Position numbers and translations under genes: made by a program | Assembly: GCA_017453205.1 (NCBI GenBank) | Contig: JAFTKO010000028.1 | Coordinates: 1-33,427, forward strand | From: Clostridia bacterium | GTDB lineage: Bacteria > Bacillota > Clostridia > Oscillospirales > CAG-272 | DNA: 33,427 nucleotides | Reading direction: 5' to 3' | Notes under the pieces: model-generated | What the model was told of the DNA's origin: nothing | The model's database searches: none | What the model saw: the letters and a program-made list of their open reading frames with translations, nothing else | In this document: positions 311 to 32,787 of the stretch, piece after piece | How positions within the stretch are numbered: position 1 is the stretch's first letter | How the letters are laid out: every line of letters starts with the position of its first letter

Positions 311-607
311 TTAAAAACGAAAATGCTTATTTTTTCGATGATGTTGGCAAACACAACAGGACAATTCATGTTGTGTCAGTTTCACAAGGATGGTGTCCTC
401 GCCGATGCACTCGATTTTGTGCCACGGGATAATCAAATCATCCTCTTTGCAAAAGCCGAAGATTCCACAACTGCCGTTGATAATCAAGGATAGGATTTTT
501 GCATCCTCACAATCAAACTCAAAATCGTTTGCGTAGCCCAGCCTGGAGCCGTCACAAAGGTTTACGATCTCCAACTGCCGCAAATCGGCGGTACTGAAAC
601 GTTTCAT
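311..607 (-). CDS. YlmC/YmxH family PRC-barrel sporulation-type protein
   Basis: A 98-residue PRC-barrel-like protein. The segment EIVNLCDGSRLGYANDFEFD, then the GxxGFxxxxDDLIIPWHKIECIGEDTILV pattern near residues 50-75, is the signature of the small YlmC/YmxH family of spore-forming Firmicutes. The family's biochemical role is not established; members are expressed during sporulation. The start at 607 has a GGAG site about 9 bases upstream. The C-terminus carries a Cys/His-rich tail (CCVCQHHRKNKH) beyond the usual family end, perhaps metal-binding; this is inference. It is the last gene of the minus-strand run, 61 bases after the P-type-ATPase-like gene and directly before a hairpin terminator. 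Confidence 0.85.
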   Translation of the reverse strand: MKRFSTADLRQLEIVNLCDGSRLGYANDFEFDCEDAKILSLIINGSCGIFGFCKEDDLIIPWHKIECIGEDTILVKLTQHELSCCVCQHHRKNKHFRF

Positions 608-668: not shown

Positions 669-3386
669 TTACTTGGCTGTCCGATGAAAAAAGTTTGAAA
701 AAAGAATGTAAAAGAAGATATAAAGCAAGGGCGGCAAGATCAATGACAAGAGAGAGACAAGATTCCAAGACCCCAAGCCGAATATTTTTTCAAAAGCGGC
801 AAACGGCACCGAGAAAGAGATCATTAAAATTACAGGCACCAAAATAACCGCGGAAACAGAAAGAAAAGAGCGCCAAGGAATTTGCAAATTGGAAGAAAAT
901 AATGTCAAAGGCAAAGCTGTCAATTGCAGAACCAACATGGAACAAAAAAGATAAGAAACACACACCGCTGCTGAAAAAACACCGCACCAAACAAGGATAA
1001 AAGCATAGAGGACCGTGACAAGCGATGTAACGGAAGTACTGCAAATACACCGATACTCTTTAAAAATTCTGCCCGCATGTGTTGGAGAAAATGCATGCGG
1101 CTTTCGCAATCGGTTTTGCGGAATAAAAACCGAAAGCAACCATAAGACGCAGATCGTTTCACAAATAACCCCGCCAAACAGCAATTGTGCACCGCTCATT
1201 AAACCGAAGCCAAAACAGACCGAAAGAATGGTGGGTATCAGATGCAAAAGCTGTGAGGCAATTAAAAACCTTAATATCAGTGAATAACGGTAATCCGAAG
1301 CACGGCAATCGGAAATGATCCTCAACAATGAGTAGAGACCGCCCTCCAATTTTGTTGCACGATGAATCACCACATCGGCATAACACCGAACCGCTGACGG
1401 AGAGGCTTCCTTCAAAGCCGAAGCGTGTTCCCTTTCCGCTCCCCAAATGTCCTTCTCTCTATGATACAGCACCAGATCACAGGTGACAGCAAGAGACGCG
1501 GAATACATGAGAGAAAGGTCCTCTGCATGTGTACCCAAAACAGCCACGCGTCGTTTTTGCAATTTTAAATCTTTTAACAATCTTTTGATCTCTTGATGAG
1601 AAAAGCCGATAAAAACGCGGTGCTTTTCGATAAAAGTACAAAGATCACCTTTCGTGCCTCTTACCTGTTCGGCTGTGATACCTTTATGATCATATCCTGT
1701 GGACAAAGCGTAATAACGCTCTTCCTTTGAGTCATCGGGCAAGAAAAAGGAAACACGGACTCCGCTTTGTTTCAATTCTTCCAATATTGACGGAAGAGTG
1801 GTTTGTGTTTGCTCACGCAAAGCTACCACGCCAAGCAAAATTGTTTTATTTTCTATCCGTTTTAGGATGATATGGAGACGACATCCCTCCTCTTGTGCTG
1901 AAGCGATGAAGTCCCGCAATCTTTTTCGCACAAGATCATTCAAAGGATTTTCTTTTCCGCAATCCTCAAAATGAGAACAGTGATCCAGCCATGCGAGACG
2001 TTCGGAGAACAAAAGAAAAAAATCGGCATCCTTGGTTTTTATGTCCAATAGGTCTTCCCTGCTCTCTTCCCTGTACAGATGCTGTACCGATAACAACCGC
2101 ACCCGTAAAGCTTCTGCATCATAATCACACACACGCAACAGCTCATGATGAAATGTGGAAAAATCTGTCTGTCGGTCAGCGGTACTCAATGTATACGGTG
2201 CACAGGGTTTGGCTTGCTCGAGTAACAAAAAAGCTTCGCACAGCGCCTGCAAAGAAGGGTTGGCTCTGTCATCTCTAACCTGTTGTTCTCCTGTACCCGT
2301 AGCGCAACGAAACAGATGCATTTTACCGTCCGAGATACCGCAATGCCCGATCACAAAGATATCGGTCAGTGAGGAAAGACGTTCAACAGCGCGTGTTGAT
2401 TTTAAAACCACACGTTTTTCGGGTTGTGTTTCACGAAAATGTTTGTCTTTCAAACGTATAATCGGAATTTGAAACCGGAACGACAGCAAGGCTTGCGAAC
2501 CGATTGTAATCAAAGCGCTCAGAGAAAGAAAAATACTTAATATACTAACATCCTCGGGAGCAGTCAGCATTCCGACAACCGTTAACGGCAACAGTAATAC
2601 AAAAAGTATGAATGAATAAAAACGGATAAAAGGGCGCACACAAGAAACACCCTCACAGCGTTTTACGGCGGGAACCTCTAATGTAAACTCTTTCATGGCA
2701 CCGATATAGGTTTGCTCCCCGACCGCCGTCACAAGCGCGCGCGCTTCCCCGTCCAAAACCTCGGAACAACCGAAGAGCATGTTTTCCAAATTAGGTGCAT
2801 GCGTTTGGTTTCCATAAGGATAGATCGTTTCAGCTTTTTTGACAGTAACTGTCCAAATCGGCTTTCCTTTTTCATCCGGGCTCGGAGTTCGTATTGCAAA
2901 GTTATTTGCAAAGAGTAACCGGCAATCGCACGGAACGATATCACCTTTTTTTAATAAAATGATATCTCCTTTCACCAAATTGCTTGCCGACGTTAGGTAT
3001 TCCTTACCGTCGCGAACAACACAAACCGTGGGAACGCGGTATTTGGCAATATCCGTGACAAATCGCTTTTCCATCAGTAATAACCGTATAGCAAAGCAAA
3101 TTCCCAAAGCAAAACAAACCAATGTGGAAATTCCCGTGATCATCTCGGAAAAACAAATTGACAAAATACAAGCGAAAAGAAGCAATAGCAGAGCGGGATC
3201 GGTGAATAAGGACTTGAGAATTTTACTGTTCTCTTTTTGAGAAGCTACAAAAAGTGTGTTTTCTCCAAACTTCCGATAACGAGAACGAGCCTCCTTGCGG
3301 GATAAACCGCAGGAGGCATTGGTATGCAATTTTTTGACCGCATCATCAGATGACATCTGATGCCATTTTACGTTCTCTTTTTCCAT
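669..3386 (-). CDS. P-type cation ATPase-like protein lacking the catalytic motifs (pseudo-ATPase)
   Basis: An intact 905-residue protein with the full P-type ATPase layout: N-terminal cation-ATPase region (residues 8-45), two membrane helices, actuator domain with the KGD turns (139-149), a second helix pair (about 253-305), the region that normally holds the phosphorylation site, a nucleotide/hinge region, and about six C-terminal helices. The key residues are gone. The stretch AVERLSSLTDIFVI aligns without gaps to AVETLGSATVICSD, so the phosphorylated Asp of DKTGT is Ile346. The actuator TGES is replaced near residues 165-175. The hinge GDGxND reads GTHAED (618-623). The helix-4 PEGLP is absent. 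It therefore cannot follow the normal phosphoenzyme cycle. It starts 24 bases after the Clp ATPase gene and has only a weak ribosome site. A regulatory, scaffold or non-ATP-driven membrane role is possible; its substrate is unknown. Confidence 0.85.
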   Translation of the reverse strand: MEKENVKWHQMSSDDAVKKLHTNASCGLSRKEARSRYRKFGENTLFVASQKENSKILKSLFTDPALLLLLFACILSICFSEMITGISTLVCFALGICFAIRLLLMEKRFVTDIAKYRVPTVCVVRDGKEYLTSASNLVKGDIILLKKGDIVPCDCRLLFANNFAIRTPSPDEKGKPIWTVTVKKAETIYPYGNQTHAPNLENMLFGCSEVLDGEARALVTAVGEQTYIGAMKEFTLEVPAVKRCEGVSCVRPFIRFYSFILFVLLLPLTVVGMLTAPEDVSILSIFLSLSALITIGSQALLSFRFQIPIIRLKDKHFRETQPEKRVVLKSTRAVERLSSLTDIFVIGHCGISDGKMHLFRCATGTGEQQVRDDRANPSLQALCEAFLLLEQAKPCAPYTLSTADRQTDFSTFHHELLRVCDYDAEALRVRLLSVQHLYREESREDLLDIKTKDADFFLLFSERLAWLDHCSHFEDCGKENPLNDLVRKRLRDFIASAQEEGCRLHIILKRIENKTILLGVVALREQTQTTLPSILEELKQSGVRVSFFLPDDSKEERYYALSTGYDHKGITAEQVRGTKGDLCTFIEKHRVFIGFSHQEIKRLLKDLKLQKRRVAVLGTHAEDLSLMYSASLAVTCDLVLYHREKDIWGAEREHASALKEASPSAVRCYADVVIHRATKLEGGLYSLLRIISDCRASDYRYSLILRFLIASQLLHLIPTILSVCFGFGLMSGAQLLFGGVICETICVLWLLSVFIPQNRLRKPHAFSPTHAGRIFKEYRCICSTSVTSLVTVLYAFILVWCGVFSAAVCVSYLFCSMLVLQLTALPLTLFSSNLQIPWRSFLSVSAVILVPVILMISFSVPFAAFEKIFGLGSWNLVSLLSLILPPLLYIFFYILFSNFFHRTAK

Positions 3387-3410: not shown

Positions 3411-5762
3411 TTACATGCAATTGATGAGGATGTTTTCACCGTCTGCGTCGATTTTTGCAAAAGAATAGAACTTGCGATAGTCGGCAATGATCATACTTGC
3501 CAAGCGGTCCTCGACTTCTTTTTGGATATAACGGCGCATATTGCGCGCACCGTATTTACGCGAGAAAGACTGCTTTGCAATTAAGGCGGTTGCCGCATCG
3601 GTATACGACAGCTTGATATTCTTTTCGGAAAGCGCCTGTTTCAGTTCCTCTAACATAATGGATGCAATCTTTACAAAATCGGTTTCGTCAAGCTGACGGA
3701 AAGTGATGATCTCATCCACACGGTTGAGAAATTCGGGACGCAGAAAAGCCTCCAAGGCCTTTTGCGTTTTGGCGTCGGCGCCGGCAACGTCTCCCCATGT
3801 GAACCCGGCAGTCGCTGCGGAATGATCGGATCCCGCATTGGTGGTCATCACGATAACGGTGTTTTCAAAGTTGACCGTCTTGCCGCGCGCGTCGGTAATT
3901 CTGCCGTCATCCAAAATTTGAAGCATGATATTGAGCACATCGGGATGCGCTTTTTCGATCTCATCAAAAAGAACGATTGAATATGGGCGGCGGCGGATCT
4001 TTTCGGTCAATTGCCCCGCTTCATCGTAACCGACATATCCGGGAGGTGCGCCGATAATACGGGAGACCGAGTGCTTTTCCATAAATTCGGACATATCCAA
4101 ACGAATCAAGGTCTCGGGAGAGTGAAAGAGGTCGTTTGCAAGCGTTTTCACAAGCTCGGTTTTGCCCACACCCGTAGGGCCTGCAAAGATAAAGGAAACC
4201 GGCTTGCGCTTGTAGGCAATACCCGCGCGGTTGCGTTTGATCGCACGTGCTACCGCCTCTACCGCGGTGTCCTGTCCGATAATGCGCTCTTTCAAACGGC
4301 TTTCCAACTTATCGATCTGTTCAAACTCGTTTTCGGTAATATTGGTTGCGGGAATACCGGTCCAAAGCTCAATCACATTTGCAATCTCGTTTTCGGTTAA
4401 CTCAACACTTTTCGCTAAGGGTTCCAGCTCTCCGAGCTTTGCAGAAAGACGCAATTCCTCGGCGCGTACCTTGGTGATTTCCTCATAGCGCGCCTGTTCC
4501 ACGGATTCGTTACCAGCAATCTCACCTTCCAGTTCTTCTCTCTTTTCTTTCAACAGCAAAAGCTGGTCGCGCAAAGCATAGGAGTCATTGATGGATGCTG
4601 AGGAAAGCGAGAGATAGGATGCCGCCTCGTCAAGCAGATCGATGGCTTTATCCGGAAGATAACGGTCGGTGATATAGCGTTCCGAAAGGATTACGGTGCG
4701 GCGCAAAAGCTCCTCCGGGATAATGACCGAATGGAACTCCTCATAATAATGCTTGATGCCGCGCAGCATTTCCACGCTTTCATCAATCGACGGCTCATTG
4801 ACCATGACAGGTTGGAAACGGCGTTCAAGAGCGGTGTCCTTTTCGATATATTTGCGATATTCGTTGAGGGTGGTGGCACCAATGATCTGCACCTCACCGC
4901 GGGAAAGCGCGGGCTTGAGAATATTGGCGGCGTTGACACTTCCCTCTGCTTCACCCGCACCGACAATGTTGTGTACCTCGTCGATTACAAGAATGGCGTT
5001 GCCCACCTCATGCACCTCGTTGAGCAGTCCGAGAATGCGGGACTCAAACTGACCGCGAAACTGGGTTCCCGCCACCAAGGCGGTCATATCCAAAAGATAG
5101 ATCTCTTTCTTTTGGAGCTTATACGGCACATTGCCGGCGGCGATCCGCATAGCGAGCGCCTCGGCAATCGCGGTCTTACCGACACCCGGCTCACCGATGA
5201 GACAGGGATTGTTTTTTTGGCGGCGGCAAAGAATTTGGATGACACGGGAGAGCTCTTTGTCTCTGCCAACGATTTGATCAAGTTTCCCCTCACGCGCAAA
5301 CTTTGTCAAATTGCGGCTGTATGTGGTCAAAAACTTCAGTTTTTTTTCTTCCTTTGCCGCTTTTTTTGCCGCTTTGCGATCGTTTTCGGGAGGATTTTGC
5401 TTTCCGTCCTGCGATTGATTGGGCATGTTTGAAGCCTTGTTACCCGCAGAGAAGAGTCCCGCGTCGCGGAAGAGTTTGGGAAGATCGATCGCGGGAGCTC
5501 CGCCGTCCTCGCGATCGTCACAATCGGAGGGCAGATTTTCAGATGCCTGCTCCAGCATCGTGGTCAGCTCCTCCTCGGCATTTTCCATCTGTTCGGGGGA
5601 AATGCCGAACTGATTCATGACATTGCCGACGATATTGTCCACCGGCACGCCCATATCCTTGGCGCACTTGAGGCAAAGTCCTTTGGTGGCCTTTTCGCCG
5701 TTTTCTACTTTTGTAACAAAAATGACAGCCATACGTTTATGGCATTGCGAACACAAAACCAT
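3411..5762 (-). CDS. clpE: Clp/Hsp100 AAA+ ATPase with N-terminal zinc finger (ClpE-like)
   Basis: A 783-residue class I Hsp100 unfoldase that would feed unfolded proteins to ClpP. The N-terminus has a four-cysteine zinc finger (C4, C7, C30, C33) in place of the Clp-N repeats of ClpC; this is the ClpE arrangement. Next comes a charged linker (about 115-150), then AAA domain 1 (Walker A G190-T197, Walker B D261-E262), a coiled middle region (about 395-445), and AAA domain 2 (Walker A G528-T535, pore loop GYVGY 575-579, Walker B D600-E601). The ClpP-docking tripeptide position reads AGF (652-654) rather than the usual [ILV]-G-[FL]. The start at 5762 is the only in-frame ATG before the zinc finger; its ribosome site is poor and an 18-base palindrome lies just upstream. 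No CtsR or CIRCE operator was seen. The family is certain; the choice of ClpE over ClpC rests on the zinc finger. Confidence 0.88.
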
Positions 5763-5817: not shown

Positions 5818-6513
5818 TTATTTTCCGAACCAACCGGCTCTAACATCCAAAAACTTGATCTTTTCAAGTAAGGATGACTCTCCGAAAAATTTGACAATCA
5901 CCGAATCGGCGTAAATCGCAGACTCCGCCCAAAAGAACTTGATCACGGATGCCGCAACGAACAACAGCACAATGGCGATCAAAAATCCAAGGACTGCGCC
6001 AAGTACGGTATTGAGTCTGTCCAAAATACCGATGTGATCGATCAGCTTATCCAATAAGATCGCACCGATCCAAAGAACGACAAGTGTGATCAGAAATACT
6101 CCGATATAACCAAAAATATTGGAAATGACTGTGGCAATGGGAGAAGCAATCGAATCGGTGACAGAGGTAACCAGCTGTTCTCCGGAGCCCTCCGCAGCGG
6201 TGATTCCCGCTTTGATCTCCTCGGTTTTTAAAAACGCGGGCAATTCCGTAAAAATACTTTCTGCATTAAAGTTTTCGGCGGCGTTTTTGTACATGGTATG
6301 CAACTTATCGTAAACAAAATCTCTTACGGCACCGCCAATGAATTTATCACACAGAAAGGCGCCCAATTTGGTGCCAAAGAAGTATGCCGCCACCAAGGCA
6401 AGGATCGTTTTTAAAAAATGAACGACACTTTTCAAAAATCCGCGTTTCGCGCATGCAAAGATCAGCGCAATTCCTACCAGCAAAAAGATAACGTCTGCTA
6501 TCATATGTCCCAT
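5818..6513 (-). CDS. CvpA-like membrane protein
   Basis: A 231-residue membrane protein with an N-terminal helix pair (about residues 5-47) and a C-terminal helix pair (about 130-185). The start DVIFLLVGIALIFACAKRGFLKSV fits the CvpA (colicin V production) family, as does the RLNTVLGAVLGFLIA segment near 165-180. A soluble loop of about 70 residues separates the helix pairs. CvpA proteins are linked to envelope stress and secretion phenotypes, but the mechanism is unknown. The start at 6513 is supported by a GGAG site about 8 bases upstream; a second ATG three codons later is less well spaced. It follows the DUF5711 gene by 38 bases, a pairing that suggests co-transcription. Confidence 0.8.
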   Translation of the reverse strand: MGHMIADVIFLLVGIALIFACAKRGFLKSVVHFLKTILALVAAYFFGTKLGAFLCDKFIGGAVRDFVYDKLHTMYKNAAENFNAESIFTELPAFLKTEEIKAGITAAEGSGEQLVTSVTDSIASPIATVISNIFGYIGVFLITLVVLWIGAILLDKLIDHIGILDRLNTVLGAVLGFLIAIVLLFVAASVIKFFWAESAIYADSVIVKFFGESSLLEKIKFLDVRAGWFGK

Positions 6514-6551: not shown

Positions 6552-7772
6552 TTAATTTTCAATATGAATGTACTCTGCCTTTTGCGGTGAGCACAGTAAC
6601 ACCTCATTTTCGTCGATCGCCAAAATATGACGGTTCTCAGTCGTACAAAAGATGCTGGTAAGACTCCCGTTTTGTATATTCAAACGAGTGATGCCGTTTT
6701 GTGTCAGCAAAAACAAACTATCCTTAAAACGGCTGAGCTCTTCTATCGGTTCGGCGGTACTTTCATTATACAACATTTTTCCGCTTTTGTCAAACACTAT
6801 TATATGAATTTTTTCTGAAATTACAGATGAGCGCAAACAAACCGTTGCACCCTCCTCCCCAAGATCGGCAGTTGCAAGAATTTTACCGTCAAACGCATAA
6901 GTGTTTTGGAGCTCTCCTGTCTTGCTCACAAAACAAATTCGATCGTTGCAAAGCACGCTGATCCCGCCCGATGAGGTAAATTCGCAGGAAAGTGCCGCCG
7001 TATCTCCGATGGGAACCGTAATTCCCGACGCATCGGTACGAGGCTCTTGAAGTGTCAGTTCTGTATAAAACAAACCGTCTTTTACCGAGGAAGTCAAAAG
7101 CGCGAGCCGGGTTCCCTTTTCGTTGATAGCAATATCCATCACATACCCATTTTTATTATAGCGGTTCAAAAGTGAAAAATGACTGCTGTAAAGCGAAACC
7201 ACTGAGGTATATTCTTCCGACCGCGAGATCAGCGCGTACATGCCTTGCTCGGAAATGGTTGCGCCATAAAGCGGGAAATCGCTTTTCCCTGCGTAAATCT
7301 GCGTGTAGGAGTTATAAAGCGAATACTGTGTCCCGCCCAACTCGTATACCAATAAATATTTTCCCGAGCCGAGCGCCACGGGATTTTGATAGTTGATTGT
7401 TTGGCTGATCGTTTGGCGTCCCGTGGCTGTAAAAACAGTTACGGAATTGTTCCCCGCAACCGCGAGTCCTTTGCGGTAAAGCGTAAAGCTTTGTTCGTTC
7501 GCAGTCGGATAGGTGACCGCGTCGGAGCCAATGACATCAACGGTCTCCGCCGAGGCACCGAGATCCTTGAAGAAATAATAAAAATTTTGATAAGTGATCA
7601 AATTGGTATTGCGAAAGAAAGAAAGAACAACAAACGCAAATAAAGAAAGATACAAAACAACTTGAAATATTCCCAATCGTGCCGAGATATTTTCATAATA
7701 TTCATTTTGCGGTTGATCGAGAACGATCTCCTTGTTTTCTTTTCGAGTACCGAAACGTATCTTTTTTTTCAA
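6552..7772 (-). CDS. DUF5711-family single-pass membrane protein with beta-propeller-like ectodomain
   Basis: A 406-residue protein with a basic cytoplasmic N-terminus, one membrane helix (about residues 34-53), then a long beta-rich extracytoplasmic domain. The domain is made of repeated short blocks typical of a propeller (patterns such as YLLVYELGGTQYSLYN and ILATADLGEEGATVCL). The layout and the neighbouring CvpA gene match the DUF5711 family of Clostridia, whose function is unknown. The start is TTG at 7772, chosen because GGAGG lies 7 bases upstream and no ATG fits. It sits 32 bases downstream of truA in the same run. It may sense or bind a cell-wall component, but this is inference only. 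Confidence 0.75.
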   Translation of the reverse strand: MKKKIRFGTRKENKEIVLDQPQNEYYENISARLGIFQVVLYLSLFAFVVLSFFRNTNLITYQNFYYFFKDLGASAETVDVIGSDAVTYPTANEQSFTLYRKGLAVAGNNSVTVFTATGRQTISQTINYQNPVALGSGKYLLVYELGGTQYSLYNSYTQIYAGKSDFPLYGATISEQGMYALISRSEEYTSVVSLYSSHFSLLNRYNKNGYVMDIAINEKGTRLALLTSSVKDGLFYTELTLQEPRTDASGITVPIGDTAALSCEFTSSGGISVLCNDRICFVSKTGELQNTYAFDGKILATADLGEEGATVCLRSSVISEKIHIIVFDKSGKMLYNESTAEPIEELSRFKDSLFLLTQNGITRLNIQNGSLTSIFCTTENRHILAIDENEVLLCSPQKAEYIHIEN

Positions 7773-7804: not shown

Positions 7805-8563
7805 TCAGTAGATCACGCGGTTGAGATACAACCCGCACGCGGGCATGGTAGAACCCGCAAGCGTGCGATCGCGGCTTTCTGTGATCTTGTCAATGTCGTC
7901 GGCACGCAATTTTCCTTGCCCGACCGCCAAGAGGGTGCCTGCGAGGATTCTCACCATGTTGTAAAGGAAACCATTGGCGGAAATGCGAAAAATGATCACA
8001 TCTCCCTCACGTCGGACATCACAGCGTGTCACGGTACGTACCGTACTTTTTACGGATGAGCCCTGTGCCATGTAAGCCGCAAAATCGTGTGTTCCGCAAA
8101 GCTTGGCAGAGGCACGGTTCATCTCCTGTAAAGCATCATCGGAGATCGGCTTTGGAATATGTGCCGACCGATTTTCTTCAAACGGACTTCTGACCGTGCG
8201 ATTATAAAAACGGTAAATATATTCTTTTTCTTTGACATCGTATCTGGCATGAAAGCCATCCTCCACCCAATCCGCGGCAAATACACAAATATCCTGCGGC
8301 AAATATGCCGACATGGCAAGTGGGAGCCTTTCTGCGGGAATCGCAGTCGGCAAATTTGACTGCCCCTTTTTGGCAACCGTAGCACAGAACGCATTGGCAT
8401 GAACTCCGCTGTCTGTGCGACTGCAACCGACAATATCACAGTCAAAGCCAAATACCGCACGTGCCGCTTCATTTAATTTTTGCTGAATACTGACACCGTT
8501 TGGTTGGACTTGATAACCACAATAATCGGTGCCGAGATAACTGATTTTGATAAGCGCTTTCAT
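7805..8563 (-). CDS. truA: tRNA pseudouridine(38-40) synthase TruA
   Basis: A 252-residue enzyme that isomerises uridines 38-40 in the anticodon arm of tRNAs. The catalytic aspartate is D51, in the family motif GCSRTDSGVHA (47-57). The N-terminus MKALIKISYLGTDYCGYQ and the later FLYNMVRILAGTL segment are typical. The reading frame is open for 51 more codons upstream, but that extension lies inside ecfT in another frame and has no family similarity, so ATG at 8563 is the start. It begins 2 bases after the ecfT stop, which suggests translational coupling. The ecfA1-ecfA2-ecfT-truA order is common in Firmicutes. Confidence 0.95.
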   Translation of the reverse strand: MKALIKISYLGTDYCGYQVQPNGVSIQQKLNEAARAVFGFDCDIVGCSRTDSGVHANAFCATVAKKGQSNLPTAIPAERLPLAMSAYLPQDICVFAADWVEDGFHARYDVKEKEYIYRFYNRTVRSPFEENRSAHIPKPISDDALQEMNRASAKLCGTHDFAAYMAQGSSVKSTVRTVTRCDVRREGDVIIFRISANGFLYNMVRILAGTLLAVGQGKLRADDIDKITESRDRTLAGSTMPACGLYLNRVIY

Positions 8564-8565
8564 GA

Positions 8566-9390
8566 TTACGAAAGTGTATAGCCAAAGCCGTAACGGTTCA
8601 AAAAGAAGAGACCGACACCAAATGCCGCAACCAACAGGATGGCAACAAAATCCACCGCGCGGTAATGAAGAACATTTAAGCGCGTTCTTCCCTCCCCGCC
8701 GTGGTAGCAACGGCACTCCATTGCCGATGCAAGATCAAACGCACGGTTGAACGCCGATACAAACAAAGGAACCAAAATTGGGATCAGAGCTTTAGCACGC
8801 TTTAAGAGACTTCCTGTGGTAAAATCAGCCCCGCGCGCCTTCTGTGCGTTCATAATCTTTTCGGTTTCCTCGGTCAACGTGGGGATAAAACGCAGGGCAA
8901 TGGTCATCATCATTGCGAAATCGTGAACCGGAATCTTAATCTTTTTGAGCGGAGAAAGCAAATATTCCAACGCGTCTGTCAAAGCAATGGGGGTTGTGGT
9001 ATAGGTCAAAAAGATACCCGTTCCGATAATCAAAACCGTAATGCGCAAAACCATAAACAAAGCATTCCAAATTCCTTCGGCATAAATTTTGATTTTCCAA
9101 CTCTCGGGGGTAAGCAAGGTCTCACCTTTCGTCATAAAAATATTGATGACCGAGGTAAAGGCAATGATAAAGAGGATGGGGCGCAGGGAGCGCAGTACCA
9201 ATTTCAGCGGAATATGGCTAAGCGTGACCAATAAGATTGCCGAGAGAAGCAGTGCAATAAATCCCGTAAGATTTTTGCAAAGAAAAGTACAGACAATGTA
9301 AAGAACCGCCATAATAACCTTGGCACGCGGATCAATACGGTGCATGGGAGATACAGCAGGATAATATTGCCCAAAAGCAACCCCTTTCAT
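8566..9390 (-). CDS. ecfT: Energy-coupling factor transporter transmembrane protein EcfT
   Basis: A 274-residue integral membrane subunit that couples the two EcfA ATPases to interchangeable vitamin- or metal-binding S components. The N-terminus GQYYPAVSPMHRIDPRAK is the family signature; five to six membrane helices follow. The first coupling motif is intact (AQKARGADF), while the second reads AMECRCYHGG, where AM(E)xRGY is usual, so its Gly is replaced by Cys. ATG at 9390 is preferred because GGAGG lies 9 bases upstream; the in-frame GTG at 9399 abuts the ribosome site. It starts 1 base after the ecfA2 stop. No S component is present in the window, consistent with a group II module serving several substrates. 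Confidence 0.93.
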   Translation of the reverse strand: MKGVAFGQYYPAVSPMHRIDPRAKVIMAVLYIVCTFLCKNLTGFIALLLSAILLVTLSHIPLKLVLRSLRPILFIIAFTSVINIFMTKGETLLTPESWKIKIYAEGIWNALFMVLRITVLIIGTGIFLTYTTTPIALTDALEYLLSPLKKIKIPVHDFAMMMTIALRFIPTLTEETEKIMNAQKARGADFTTGSLLKRAKALIPILVPLFVSAFNRAFDLASAMECRCYHGGEGRTRLNVLHYRAVDFVAILLVAAFGVGLFFLNRYGFGYTLS

Positions 9391-9391
9391 G

Positions 9392-10348
9392 TTATACACC
9401 TCCCTTTCCCGTTTCCAAAAAACGTTTTACCGCCGAGACTGCGGCATCGACTGTATAAATATCTTGAGGAACATCCATACCTTTTTCACGCAAAAGCGCC
9501 ATCAGCTGTGTGATCTGCGGAATATCAAGACCGATGGAGGAAAGGTCGGAGACCTTGGAGAATACCTCCTTACAGTTTCCGTGCATTTTGACCTGTCCGT
9601 TTGCCATGACGACCATATCATCACAGTAGCGTGCCATGTCCTCCATGCTGTGACTGACAATGAGCACCGTGGAACCGGTGGTTTTCTGATAGTGGCTGAT
9701 ACCTTCAAAAATAAAGTCTCTGCCGCGCGGATCCAGACCCGCCGCAGGCTCGTCCAAGACCAAAACCTCCGGGCGCATGGCAATGACACCCGCCAAGGCA
9801 ACGCGGCGTTTTTGTCCGCCGGAAAGATCAAAGGGGGATTTATCCAACAGATCCGACTCGATCCCCGTAAATTCCGCCGCCTCCAAAACGCGGGCTTTGA
9901 TCTCTTCCTCGGAAAGTCCCATGTTTTGAGGACCGAACGCGATATCCTTAAACACCGTCTCCTCAAACAACTGGTATTCGGGATATTGCATAACCAAGCC
10001 CACACGAAAGCAAAGCTCTCTGCGGCGGCGTGTAACCTCTGCTTTGATTGCCTTTTTTGCGGCGCTTTTCGATAAATTTCGGTAAGGGGGCAAAGACTTG
10101 CATGCCTCCAAAACCTCCTCCGGGCGGCTGTTGATGTCATAGTCATCCAAAAGAACCTTGCCCTCGGTGGGGCTTGCAAGACCGTTGAGGAGCTGCATCA
10201 TTGTGGATTTTCCCGAACCCGTATGCCCGATAATTCCCGTCATACAGCCCGCGCGAATCCCGAGAGAAACATCATCAAGTGCTTTCTTCTCAAACGGCGT
10301 TCCCTGACCGTAGATATAGCTGACATGATCCAAATAAATCTTATACAT
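9392..10348 (-). CDS. ecfA2: Energy-coupling factor transporter ATPase EcfA2
   Basis: A 318-residue ABC ATPase. Walker A is GHTGSGKST (41-49), the Q-loop QYPEYQLF begins at 121, the signature is LSGGQ (175-179), and Walker B ends at E200. The Q-loop wording and the LDEPAAGLDPRGR stretch are typical of the EcfA2 (EcfA') subunit. It carries an insertion of about 35 mostly basic residues between the core beta-strands and the Q-loop (about 75-110), longer than in the usual 285-290-residue protein. Its start overlaps the ecfA1 stop by 8 bases, indicating coupled translation of the heterodimer. Confidence 0.94.
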   Translation of the reverse strand: MYKIYLDHVSYIYGQGTPFEKKALDDVSLGIRAGCMTGIIGHTGSGKSTMMQLLNGLASPTEGKVLLDDYDINSRPEEVLEACKSLPPYRNLSKSAAKKAIKAEVTRRRRELCFRVGLVMQYPEYQLFEETVFKDIAFGPQNMGLSEEEIKARVLEAAEFTGIESDLLDKSPFDLSGGQKRRVALAGVIAMRPEVLVLDEPAAGLDPRGRDFIFEGISHYQKTTGSTVLIVSHSMEDMARYCDDMVVMANGQVKMHGNCKEVFSKVSDLSSIGLDIPQITQLMALLREKGMDVPQDIYTVDAAVSAVKRFLETGKGGV

Positions 10349-11237
10349 CTTGTTCCTCTTGCTTCAAAGACGTTTTTGCATAATAGCTTGCAATCAACTC
10401 GGCACAATCTTCTACCGTGGAAATTTTTGTTCCGTCAATATCGATCCCCGATTTGCGCAATTCATGGATCAGTGCCGCGCATTGCGGTACCTCGAGGCCG
10501 ACACGGCGCAAGATCTCGCGCTGTGCAAAGATTTCATCGGGCGTACCGTCCATCAAAAGCTCTCCGTCATTGATCACAAGAATGCGATCGGCCATTGCCG
10601 CCTCGTTCATATAGTGCGTAATATTGAGCACCGTAATCCCATGCTCACAATTCAGCATTTGGATCGTATTCAACACCTCACGTCTGCCGCTGGGATCGAG
10701 CATTGCCGTCGATTCGTCAAAAATAATACACTTTGGCATCATGGCAATGATCCCCGCAATGGCAACCCTCTGCTTTTGACCGCCCGAGAGACGGTGAGGT
10801 TCATGATGCGCATAATCGCTCATATCGACTGCCGCCAAGGCACCATCCACCCGTTCGCGCAGTTCGGGGTGCGGAACACCGAGATTTTCGGGACCGAACG
10901 CAACATCTTCTTCTACGATCGTGGCAACCAACTGATTATCGGGGTTTTGAAAGACCATACCGACGTTTCGGCGAAGCTGTAACACTTCTTCATCGGAAAG
11001 CTCACGTCCCGTCAGCTCCACATCTCCGATCACAAGCTTACCCGAGGTCGGTTCCAATATCAAATTCAAAAGCTTGGCAAAGGTCGATTTACCAGAGCCG
11101 TTGTGACCGAGCACCGCGACATATTCGCCCTCATGAATATCCACCGAAATGCCGTTGAGCGCAGGATGCTCTGCTTTTCCGTCAGCGTCGGTATAGGAAA
11201 AGCAAAGTTTTTCGGTATGAATGTAAATATCAGACAA
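10341..11237 (-). CDS. ecfA1: Energy-coupling factor transporter ATPase EcfA1
   Basis: A 298-residue ABC ATPase, partner of EcfA2. Walker A GHNGSGKST is at 44-52, the Q-loop glutamine at 97 (QNPDNQLVATIVEEDVAFGPENLG), LSGGQ at 150-154, and Walker B ends CIIFDE (E175). The wording FDESTAMLDPSGR is typical of EcfA1. The start is taken as TTG at 11237 because AAGGA lies 9 bases upstream; an in-frame TTG at 11246 touches the ribosome site and is unlikely. The gene follows the methyltransferase by 18 bases. Confidence 0.93.
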   Translation of the reverse strand: MSDIYIHTEKLCFSYTDADGKAEHPALNGISVDIHEGEYVAVLGHNGSGKSTFAKLLNLILEPTSGKLVIGDVELTGRELSDEEVLQLRRNVGMVFQNPDNQLVATIVEEDVAFGPENLGVPHPELRERVDGALAAVDMSDYAHHEPHRLSGGQKQRVAIAGIIAMMPKCIIFDESTAMLDPSGRREVLNTIQMLNCEHGITVLNITHYMNEAAMADRILVINDGELLMDGTPDEIFAQREILRRVGLEVPQCAALIHELRKSGIDIDGTKISTVEDCAELIASYYAKTSLKQEEQDV

Positions 11238-11255
11238 CTTTATCAATCCTTTCTG

Positions 11256-22535: not shown

Positions 22536-23078
22536 TCACTGCGCTTCCTCGACCGACACGGTAAAAGTCAGCTTTCCGGCATATTCCCCCGCAACGGCAA
22601 TATCCTGTTGATCTACCTTAACTGTACCCGTTACGGTTTGATCTGCGGTTACGGTCGCAAACACGTTGCCGCTTTCAAATTTTGTACCGTTGCTTTGATA
22701 AACCTCATACGGTAAGGTTGCCTCGCCGCAATAAAGCAAAAATTGATTGTTGGGTGCGGTAATCGTCAAATCAATCGATTTTCCGTTGAGATAAGTGATC
22801 CCCTCAAAAACAACATTGAAATTCTTTGATACAACATCACTTCCCTCTGTTCGCGTGATTTCACCGATCGGGATTTCAGCGGGAATAGACACAGTGAACA
22901 CGGGCTTGCTCACTGCGGTTGCCATAACGGAAATATCAAGACTGCCCCCGACGATGTTCCCGTCGGCGTCGGTTTCAAGCTCAACAGCCTCAGCCGAAGC
23001 GGAAAACACAGTACCGAATGATACAAATACAACACATAGCGTGATCCAATAAAGAATGATATTCTTTAATTTTTTCAT
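22536..23078 (-). CDS. Small secreted protein sharing a C-terminal domain with the RCC1 propeller protein
   Basis: A 180-residue protein with a signal peptide (basic start, hydrophobic core, likely cleavage after SASA near residue 29). The mature part is a beta-rich domain of about 130 residues starting KPVFTVSIPAEI. The same domain forms the C-terminus of the neighbouring RCC1 protein; both contain xVxTVSIPAE, a xNGxxFAVxTxDxxxTxxGxxxxDQ block and an EYxGxxxFxxx ending. No LPXTG, WxL or S-layer anchor was seen. The function is unknown; a surface or fibre-like subunit is possible. Its ATG overlaps the upstream stop (ATGA), so the two proteins are translationally coupled. Confidence 0.8.
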   Translation of the reverse strand: MKKLKNIILYWITLCVVFVSFGTVFSASAEAVELETDADGNIVGGSLDISVMATAVSKPVFTVSIPAEIPIGEITRTEGSDVVSKNFNVVFEGITYLNGKSIDLTITAPNNQFLLYCGEATLPYEVYQSNGTKFESGNVFATVTADQTVTGTVKVDQQDIAVAGEYAGKLTFTVSVEEAQ

Positions 23079-24748
23079 TCCGCTTCCTCCTGCTCCACCG
23101 CCGCCAGTGCGATGTCAAAAATAATGGTTCCCGTATATTCGTCGGTATAAACAATTTGGCTTTGATCAATCTCGATACGGCCGTTAACCGTCATTTCACC
23201 ATCCTCGGTAAACACTGCAAATATATTTCCGTTTTCGATTGCAGTACCCGTTCCCGTGTCAGATGTATTATAAACCGAATAATATAACTTATGTGTGCGC
23301 TTTGCGTTTTCCAAAACAAACTCTCCGCTCTCGGTTCTGATCGATACCACAACCTCCTGCTCACCAAAAAGATAGTCGATGTCAGAAGCACTTACCGTAA
23401 AAGGAAGGAGTTTATTTAATGCCGTACTTGTCTGCATCAGATCCTCAGCGCCCAGCTCGGCGGGAATAGAAACCGTATATGTGGGCTTGGGAATATTTGC
23501 AGTTGCTGTTACGTAAACATCCTTACTGATATCCTCGGGTGCGGTACCGAGACAAAGATTACTGCCATCGGCTTTGGTTATCGGTGTCAAAGAAAGTGCC
23601 GTGTCATTTCCCCAAAGATAGACCAATCCGTTTTCATCGATTGCCGCGGAATAATTATTGTTTGCCGCAATCGACGTAATGATGATATCATTCAAAGCAT
23701 CAATTTGTAACGGTGTTGTTTGGAGATTGCTGTTCTCGCCCTCGGCATTGATCTCGACACCCAATTGGTATTTCTCGCCGTCTCCCCAACCGTACACTGT
23801 GCCCGATGCGGTCAGTGCCAACGTGTGATTGGAACCTGCGGCAAGCATGACGATATTCGAGGAAAGCACATCAAGATCGGCGGCTTTGAGAAGATAGGTT
23901 TTCGTGGTTGAGGTACTGCCGTTGCCAAATTGCCCGTATTTGTTGATACCGACACTTTGAACCGTTCCGTCAGCACATAAAAAAGTCGAAAAAGAGGCGC
24001 CGAAAGCAACCCCGTTGACTGCCGCCGAAAATGTCTCGGTGGTCGTCGTCGGCACATAAACTACCGAAGTGCTTTGAATACCGAGCTGGGTATCCCCGTT
24101 TTGTCCCCACAAATAAACCGTTCCGTCGGCGGCAATTGCGGCGGCAGAAGAGTTGCGCGCATAGATTTCGGTGATAAAAACTCCTTTCAATTCTTCAATT
24201 TTTGTCGGAGTGGTTATTTCTTGCGTTTCCTCACCTAATCCCAACATTCCTTTGGAAGCATCCCCCCAAGAATAAACACTGCCATCCGCACACAGTGCAA
24301 ACGAGACACCGTTTCCTGCGGCAACTGCGGTTACATTGCTGAGATCTGCAACAAGCCATGGAGTGGTTGTGGATTTATGCGTATCATCATATGCTACCCC
24401 CAATTGCGAAGTTTCATTGGAGCCCCAAGCATAAACAGTACCTTGGGAGGAAATCGCCAACACATGGTTGGTTCCCGCCGCAACGGAAACAAAAGTCAGC
24501 GTATTTCCGTTATCGTCTGTTGCCGTGACTGCAGTCGGTTTTGTCGCGGAGGTCACAGACGAAGAAGCATTTGTCCATGTCCAAACGGTACCGCTATGAT
24601 CAAGCGCGGCAAAAAAATCCGGTCCGATTTCAAGTGTCGGAGTAACGGAGGTTGCCGCAACGGTTGGTACCGCATAAAAATTTGCCAAACCCACCAAAAG
24701 AGTGATGCACAGCAAAATCGACAGCAATTTTTGTTTGCATTTTAACAT
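23075..24748 (-). CDS. Secreted seven-blade RCC1 propeller protein with C-terminal beta domain
   Basis: A 557-residue exported protein. A signal peptide (about residues 1-32) is followed by seven RCC1 repeats, each ending in G-T/S/L-V-x-x-W/V-G (examples HVLAISSQGTVYAWG and TLALTASGTVYGWG), enough for one closed seven-bladed propeller (about 38-405). A domain of about 130 residues shared with the next gene's product (TYTVSIPAEL to the end) follows. RCC1-type propellers in bacteria are presumed binding platforms; the ligand is unknown. ATG at 24748 is chosen because GAGG is 9 bases upstream and an earlier ATG abuts it. It lies 23 bases downstream of the membrane-anchor gene. Confidence 0.83.
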   Translation of the reverse strand: MLKCKQKLLSILLCITLLVGLANFYAVPTVAATSVTPTLEIGPDFFAALDHSGTVWTWTNASSSVTSATKPTAVTATDDNGNTLTFVSVAAGTNHVLAISSQGTVYAWGSNETSQLGVAYDDTHKSTTTPWLVADLSNVTAVAAGNGVSFALCADGSVYSWGDASKGMLGLGEETQEITTPTKIEELKGVFITEIYARNSSAAAIAADGTVYLWGQNGDTQLGIQSTSVVYVPTTTTETFSAAVNGVAFGASFSTFLCADGTVQSVGINKYGQFGNGSTSTTKTYLLKAADLDVLSSNIVMLAAGSNHTLALTASGTVYGWGDGEKYQLGVEINAEGENSNLQTTPLQIDALNDIIITSIAANNNYSAAIDENGLVYLWGNDTALSLTPITKADGSNLCLGTAPEDISKDVYVTATANIPKPTYTVSIPAELGAEDLMQTSTALNKLLPFTVSASDIDYLFGEQEVVVSIRTESGEFVLENAKRTHKLYYSVYNTSDTGTGTAIENGNIFAVFTEDGEMTVNGRIEIDQSQIVYTDEYTGTIIFDIALAAVEQEEAE

Positions 24749-24771
24749 GATCGTCATCCTCTCTTTATAAT

Positions 24772-31980: not shown

Positions 31981-32787
31981 CTATGCAGTACCGTTATGTT
32001 TCAGACCGCAAACAGTGCTGTCGAGGTCATAAAGATACTCGTTGACATATTTAGGGCAGTTGTAAATATCGGTTACGATTTCTTTAACGATATTTGTTCC
32101 GTCAAGAATATAGTCGTGAATCTCACTACTCGTAGTTTTCTTGATACGAATACCATCATTGTTATATTTGTAGGTATTCGCACCGTATTGCTTGAGCTGT
32201 CTGCCCTTTTCCCAAGTTGCGTCAGTACCGAGATAATTGGTCGGATTGCCGTTGGCATCATAGGTAATCGTTTGCGAACCAACCTTAATCAGCTTATCTT
32301 TCCATGTAGTATCGTATGTATAAACAACACCGTTCTTTTCAAGGATATTGCCGTACTTTTTCGTCAGATCAGAACTATCGGCATACACCATATTATTAAC
32401 CGTGTTACCGTTAACCTTTTCAGTCAACAGTTGACCCAGTTCATCATAGGTGTATTCATATACTCCGTCTACGCTATCGATTACCTTGGTAATGCGTTCC
32501 TCGGCATCGTACTCGTACTGAATCGTTCTGCCATCAGCGAACTCGATCTGCTTCACAAGTGTAGTTTCGGGCTTGGATACTTGCTTATCGTTATCCAGAT
32601 GCGTCTGCGTAATCTCGCCCTCGTGATAGGTGAAAGTACGGTTCATTAAGCCCTTACCAAGCTGCAACTCATCAAACACTTTGCGTCCCAAATGGTCGCT
32701 CTTGGCATGAGAAACTACACCGGTAGGCAACTGTACCGCTACATTCTGATATTCAAAGACATATTTCTGCTTGATACTGTCGGCATT
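31981..32787 (-). pseudogene. RHS/YD-repeat protein fragment
   Basis: About 270 codons of RHS repeats: FADGRTIQYEYDAEERI, VYEYTYDELGQLLTEKVNG, SQTITYDANGNPTNYLG and NTYKYNNDGIRIKKT are classic YD units. The fragment lacks the secretion N-terminus, and the frame opens only just after a TGA at the -10 box (32796). It stops at TAG (31981-31983) inside the conserved core, before the hyperconserved end and the toxin domain. No start codon is evident for the full reading; an internal start at 32730 is non-canonical. It is a relic of a polymorphic toxin gene. Confidence 0.8.

Follow-up and report, generated by a model that had tools for sequence, protein, structure and literature searches.

What does a relative of the P-type ATPases do once the residues that drive pumping are gone, and is its gene decaying or maintained? 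The question is raised by a gene near the left end of a Clostridia bacterium contig (JAFTKO010000028.1, assembly GCA_017453205.1), which was analyzed over its full 33,427 nucleotides and is referred to here as the window. The gene lies at positions 669..3386 and is real as a single uninterrupted frame of 905 codons, as originally predicted; it starts with ATG and is on the minus strand, which had not been given. Its frame, Pfam domains, and hhalign alignment identify the 905-aa product as a P2-type pseudo-ATPase. Only two Pfam domains are found in it, Cation_ATPase_N (residues 8-76; 3159..3365, minus strand; E 1.7e-11) and E1-E2_ATPase (residues 118-293; E 1.4e-13), with no recognizable HAD hydrolase or nucleotide-binding domain. 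The actuator domain, delimited by Pfam and conservation (residues ∼113-240; 2667..3050, minus strand), has lost its TGES loop, and the family-mean hydropathy has hydrophobic stretches compatible with an M1-M10 layout. The C terminus (672..692) ends in RTAK, and RTAK or RTSK is terminal in 10 of 14 aligned members of the genus, possibly as a short recognition motif.

The likeness to cation P-type ATPases along the full length, as first proposed, is far above chance. A profile of fourteen family members aligns with one of 22 canonical pumps at an hhalign probability of 100% and E 1.1e-59, over 833 columns. Because this alignment spans residues 7-897, homology extends to the P-domain and membrane parts, and the protein belongs by descent to the P-type ATPase superfamily with its actuator, P, N, and membrane parts. 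A 37-member family profile matches the Listeria Ca2+-ATPase lmo0841 (PDB 6zhf) at E 7e-103; this is the best PDB match of the family profile, and that of the window protein is SPCA1. The best NCBIfam model for the window protein is the PMR1-type Ca2+-ATPase TIGR01522, at 89.5 bits over residues 6-296 against a cut-off of 798.3, which a canonical paralogue in the same genome (L046; G000:C3:113683-114618) likewise misses, at 680.9. That paralogue is a P2-type ATPase with DKTGT, TGES, and GDGVND, and the pseudo-ATPase is thus no substitute for a canonical pump.

P-type ATPases are defined by an aspartate that is phosphorylated. In the window protein the catalytic-site segment reads TDIFVIGHCGISDG, and the stretch AVERLSSLTDIFVI terminates at Ile346 (codon 2349..2351, minus strand). 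The gap-free alignment sets Ile346 opposite the catalytic Asp, in agreement with the original prediction, and hhalign, with a one-residue shift, sets Gly347 there; neither is Asp. The other predicted losses are also confirmed: GDGxND is replaced by GTHAED in the alignment (residues 618-623; 1518..1535, minus strand), and TGES and PEGLP are gone. Replacements extend to the Ca2+-site residues of the aligned M5-M6 region (residues 710-749; 1140..1259, minus strand).

The gene is not confined to this genome. A search of 60 relatives finds matches over most of the length, at 31 to 47% identity, in 13 further genus genomes, the range being 29 to 47% in an alignment of these orthologues, and G029 carries a copy split over two contigs, so that, with the window, 15 of the 35 genus genomes have the gene. 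At the level of the family (group f1), 150 of 295 genomes and 46 of 71 genera have matches to the 37-member profile at E 1e-125, where the best canonical match seen is 6.5e-111; these 150 are profile matches, with motifs checked on a subset. Relatives with degenerate sites that adjoin a gene for the Clp ATPase ClpE are also present in two further families, f17 and f20. Among the relatives with a name on record, most go by Clostridia bacterium or Oscillospiraceae bacterium, and many were sampled from the guts of ruminants. Other searches were less informative: the window protein alone as query returned no related loci; a class-wide search of 196 genomes with a narrow profile (A1, E 1e-45), which may not reach f17 and f20, matched no genome but that of the window; and a broad profile (A5) used across the class gave 29 loci besides the window's own, 27 canonical and two without a long frame, with no separation.

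The loss of motifs is shared throughout these relatives. In a first motif scan, DKTGT, TGES, and GDGxND are all absent from 56 of 56 related open reading frames (ORFs), and all three are present in each of three canonical ORFs. An Asp stands at the site in only two of the 56 (L117 and L082), neither with DKTGT; the site in L117 is VDREGALT. The Glu of TGES alone is retained in 7 of 55. The P2A hallmarks, PEGLP in M4 and the M5/M6 Ca2+-site residues, are not preserved, with the M4 Pro in 8 of 55 and the M4 Glu in 33 of 55. When a wider set is ranked by bit score, DKTGT and GDGxND are missing from all ORFs that score above 450 bits, and the top canonical ORF is at 424; below 450 bits the two kinds overlap, and three f20 members (393 to 404 bits), L154 (347 bits), and one fragment also lack DKTGT. 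Among 31 diverse members, Pfam recognizes the actuator in 31, the N terminus in 28, the membrane C terminus in 21, and the HAD hydrolase in one.

The catalytic site itself has taken several forms. A number of relatives have PKEGAF or PREGAF, in which the Lys or Arg and the Gly of the old motif are kept and Pro replaces Asp, and f20 members have, for example, CAKGQAF or CEKNSAF. By their sequences these forms look like intermediates toward that of the window, and the residues found there in different members (Pro, Ala, Glu, or Asp) offer a natural series through which the loss of the site can be followed. The protein could still be an enzyme if the nucleophile has been relocated, for example to Asp353-Gly354, both residues of which are invariant in 14 of 14 aligned genus members. 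By eye, however, no HAD motif surrounds Asp353, both GDGxND and TGES have disappeared too, and PKEGAF-type members (L112, L088, and L081 among them) have no DG pair; we consider a relocated nucleophile highly unlikely.

A single branch separates 49 pseudo-ATPases from 30 canonical pumps in a 79-row tree with an SH-aLRT of 100, from an unrooted quick IQ-TREE search (LG+C20) without bootstrap in which several rows have long branches. On the pseudo-ATPase side, the f17 and f20 members are placed closest to the canonical pumps, and the genus of the window is deeply nested. One origin for the pseudo-ATPases is possible on this tree. Some members have charged C-terminal tails, of 275 residues in L085:6464-10060, 369 in L115:1883-5755, and 179 in L092:4023-7331, and those of L085 and L115 end alike, each with the stretch EYEAIMAEYN. 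Domain fusions were considered as a clue to function and set aside, as a Pfam scan of seven long members gave no additional domain above the cut-off.

The pseudo-ATPase gene belongs to a row of genes on the minus strand. Its upstream neighbor, separated by 24 bp, codes for a 783-aa ClpE-type Clp ATPase (3411..5762), identified by Pfam and by motifs that include an N-terminal zinc finger, two Walker A motifs, and an xGF loop, in keeping with the zinc finger, two AAA modules, and xGF loop expected of ClpE. Further upstream, all on the minus strand, are genes for a CvpA-like membrane protein (5818..6513; PF02674) and, by Pfam, a DUF5711 protein (6552..7772), a TruA-like pseudouridine synthase (7805..8716), an EcfT-like protein of the CbiQ family (8566..9399), and two ABC ATPases that form an EcfA-like pair (9392..11246), giving the order EcfA-EcfA-EcfT-TruA-DUF5711-CvpA-ClpE and then the pseudo-ATPase. 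Directly downstream is a gene for a YlmC/YmxH-family PRC-barrel protein (311..607, minus strand; TIGR02888, 73.7 bits against a cut-off of 44.2). Beyond it are a hairpin-like stretch (∼190-250) and the first part of an IS200-like transposase, truncated where the contig ends (1..111, minus strand; Pfam Y1_Tnp, E 1.4e-5). Elsewhere, the window codes for a 560-aa RCC1-repeat protein (23075..24757) and, near the right contig end, has an ORF with an RHS repeat (31981..32730). The YmxH neighbor suggested a link with sporulation, which we dropped, as SpoIVA is present in 30 of 35 genus genomes, both with and without the pseudo-ATPase, and does not discriminate between them.

Adjacency to a Clp gene, originally proposed as a point to check in homologues, holds widely. 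In 65 of the 70 loci searched by tblastn, which come from three families, the pseudo-ATPase gene is immediately preceded by a ClpE gene in the same orientation, and the intergenic gap is at most 50 bp in 45 of 49, with a median of 16 bp. Two of the five loci without an adjoining ClpE have only 391 bases and 1 base of upstream DNA, ClpE is ∼2 kb further upstream in L108, and no ClpE is present within the available 1.9 to 2.0 kb of upstream contig in L110 and L093. Of 47 ClpE partners, all 47 have retained the two GVGKT Walker A motifs as well as the xGF loop; the zinc finger is seen in 44, and the remaining three are truncated where the DNA ends. What follows the pseudo-ATPase varies between loci, with YmxH in 16 of 55, RpsB in 16 of 55, and Tsf in 9 of 55. 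We examined 28 further regions from the order, not a fair sample since eight were chosen for a P-type match: 14 have a degenerate P-type relative after ClpE (weak or partial in L277 and L279), 13 have ClpE without one (L274 and L282 with little contig left), and in the remaining region, L230, ClpE is missing and the sole P-type gene is a canonical pump.

Is the gene, then, a former Ca2+-ATPase in decay? The loss of every catalytic motif and the patchy occurrence within the genus are what decay would produce, and one frame (L079, 757 aa; 1 of 56) does end at an early stop inside its contig. Against this, 52 of the 56 frames are at least 881 aa long and the three other short ones run into the end of the fetched DNA. 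Among the 14 closest family pairs, 12 are measurable, most at dS >1, and dN/dS is 0.045 to 0.19 in ten and 0.30 and 0.40 in the other two; the window's own pair is not among them, its nearest relative being only 47% identical. The two closest pairs have values of 0.045 (dS 0.55) and 0.125 (dS 0.40). Two pairs are inside the window's genus, one at 0.146 (dS 1.46) and one at 0.40 (dS 0.82), and the latter is the weakest evidence for constraint and a point in favor of decay. New residues recur across the family, as described below for the ion site, and tblastn (E 1e-3) finds no remnant after ClpE in any of 17 genomes without the gene, in four of which only 0.4 to 1.8 kb lies beyond ClpE. On the dN/dS values and the lack of remnants we reject decay, which is extremely unlikely.

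Conservation is uneven along the protein, with mean pair identities of 0.34 in the actuator (the highest), 0.31 in the N terminus, and 0.16 in the N domain (the lowest). The first GD of the actuator domain is retained in 55 of 55 members and the second in 56 and 54 of 56. The original prediction named two outcomes that would indicate decay, close relatives with DKTGT and dN/dS near 1, and neither appeared: DKTGT is in none of the 56 related ORFs and all 12 usable pairs lie between 0.045 and 0.40. Its proposal of selection for a role other than pumping is borne out by these low values together with a motif loss shared by 56 of 56. With homology kept, catalytic residues lost, and purifying selection in the measured pairs, the protein may be classed as a pseudoenzyme. 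We are confident that it is a conserved, non-pumping pseudo-ATPase and, since selection persists after the pump parts were lost, it probably has another membrane job. With like assurance, we place it in an ancient family of P2-type ATPase relatives that do not pump, are maintained by selection, and are encoded directly after ClpE in gut Clostridia.

Of the 20 genus genomes without the pseudo-ATPase, 19 still encode a ClpE-type protein (two only in part), the closest being 89% identical to that of the window; G017 has only a 52% match over 130-759, as is seen for the second Clp of other genomes. ClpE is thus independent of the pseudo-ATPase, and its persistence, together with the lack of remnants, indicates that the pseudo-ATPase is dispensable or replaceable and can be absent without trace. 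YmxH is the next ORF after ClpE in 6 of the 17 genomes without the gene. In 58 matched pairs whose ClpE proteins are 75 to 95% identical, mean identities are 0.36 for the pseudo-ATPase, 0.41 for CvpA, and 0.81 for ClpE; the rate of the pseudo-ATPase is close to that of an ordinary membrane neighbor and far above that of ClpE.

These observations would suit an accessory membrane protein whose function is unrelated to ClpE and which is held in place only by an old operon: ClpE persists without it, its rate is near that of CvpA, and relatives with nothing P-type after ClpE still have most of the EcfA-to-ClpE row. Moreover, since the row includes housekeeping genes, adjacency alone is no proof of contact. 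An unrelated function is nonetheless rather unlikely, as the gene keeps its place directly after ClpE in nearly all loci of three families even though the genes downstream vary. A Clp partnership, to which this adjacency points, is plausible.

The membrane part offers another clue. At the canonical Ca2+ site the family has Arg for the M5 Glu in 46 of 54 members, Gln for the M5 Asn in 40, and Gly for the M6 Asn in 45, and the M6 Asp is retained in 42; neither the M5 Glu nor the M6 Asn is retained in any of the 54. Of 71 canonical rows, three have a gap at the same M5 place and none of the other 68 has Arg. The Ca2+ site is thus not merely lost; its replacements are recurrent. The family site is mostly Gln and Arg in M5 with Gly and Asp in M6, and that of the window is Gln, His, Gly, and Glu.

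Such a site might serve a non-pumping ion sensor or a passive transporter, in which the M5 Arg and M6 Asp would bind or gate an ion or proton, the cytosolic domains would report it, and ClpE would be simply co-transcribed. Recurrence of the M5 Arg, the M6 Asp or Glu, and the M6 Gly across the family favors this proposal. The family's M5 Arg may align with the Arg of the plant pump. In P3A proton pumps, the TM6 Asp is reported to be under the control of a TM5 Arg (PMC10654040), a precedent for such a pair. However, aligned f17 and f20 members have neither Arg nor Asp, and the window itself has His and Glu where the family mostly has this pair, such that a role in ion sensing or transport appears quite unlikely.

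Our preferred reading is that of a maintained non-pumping P2-type relative that acts as a membrane scaffold or adaptor with ClpE. Without a phosphorylatable Asp and GDGxND, the protein would form no phosphoenzyme and would not pump. The membrane body with the cytosolic N-terminal and actuator domains would be retained as a docking platform or interaction surface, and, through a predicted contact, would present ClpE, acting with ClpP, with clients or a signal from the membrane. Taken as a whole this statement is tentative and falls somewhat short of probable, and the ClpE adaptor role as such is possible without being likely. A bolder version is unlikely as a whole: a one-time conversion, in an ancestor of several gut Clostridia families, of a P-type pump into a dedicated, non-pumping membrane adaptor of ClpE. 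This would be a bacterial ERAD-like receptor on a P-type ATPase body, whose ion site, in the family of the window, has been rebuilt and charge-paired.

We know of no report of ClpE with a dedicated P-type relative. Within the titles and opening parts of abstracts that our literature search covered, there is neither ClpE with a P-type relative nor a bacterial family of this kind, and, within the scope and wording searched, no paper joins P-type ATPase with pseudoenzyme or pseudoenzymes; the family may therefore be undescribed within that literature and those words. A free-standing bacterial clade without the phosphorylated Asp or the other catalytic signatures, intact over dozens of genera, implies that a pump body could serve a purpose other than transport. 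The ClpE neighbor provides a testable partner, and the genomes without the gene are natural knockouts.

Among known systems, the closest in build are the P2A-type Ca2+-ATPases (lmo0841, PMR1/SPCA, and SERCA), which share the N-terminal, actuator, and membrane parts and their order with the pseudo-ATPase. Unlike them, it has no phosphorylatable Asp, TGES, GDGxND, or PEGLP, and its Ca2+-site residues are replaced. A precedent for degeneration is reported in the guanylate cyclase beta of Plasmodium, which has a degenerate P4-ATPase domain (PMC6592433); that protein is described as eukaryotic, of P4 type, and fused to a cyclase, whereas the pseudo-ATPase is a free-standing bacterial P2-type protein encoded beside ClpE. 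The proposed mode of action would resemble that reported for YqgP-FtsH of Bacillus subtilis, in which a membrane protein is a non-catalytic adaptor of an AAA+ protease (PMC7231995). There, the pair consists of a rhomboid and FtsH and is described as experimentally shown; here, by analogy, a P-type relative may play the corresponding part with ClpE.
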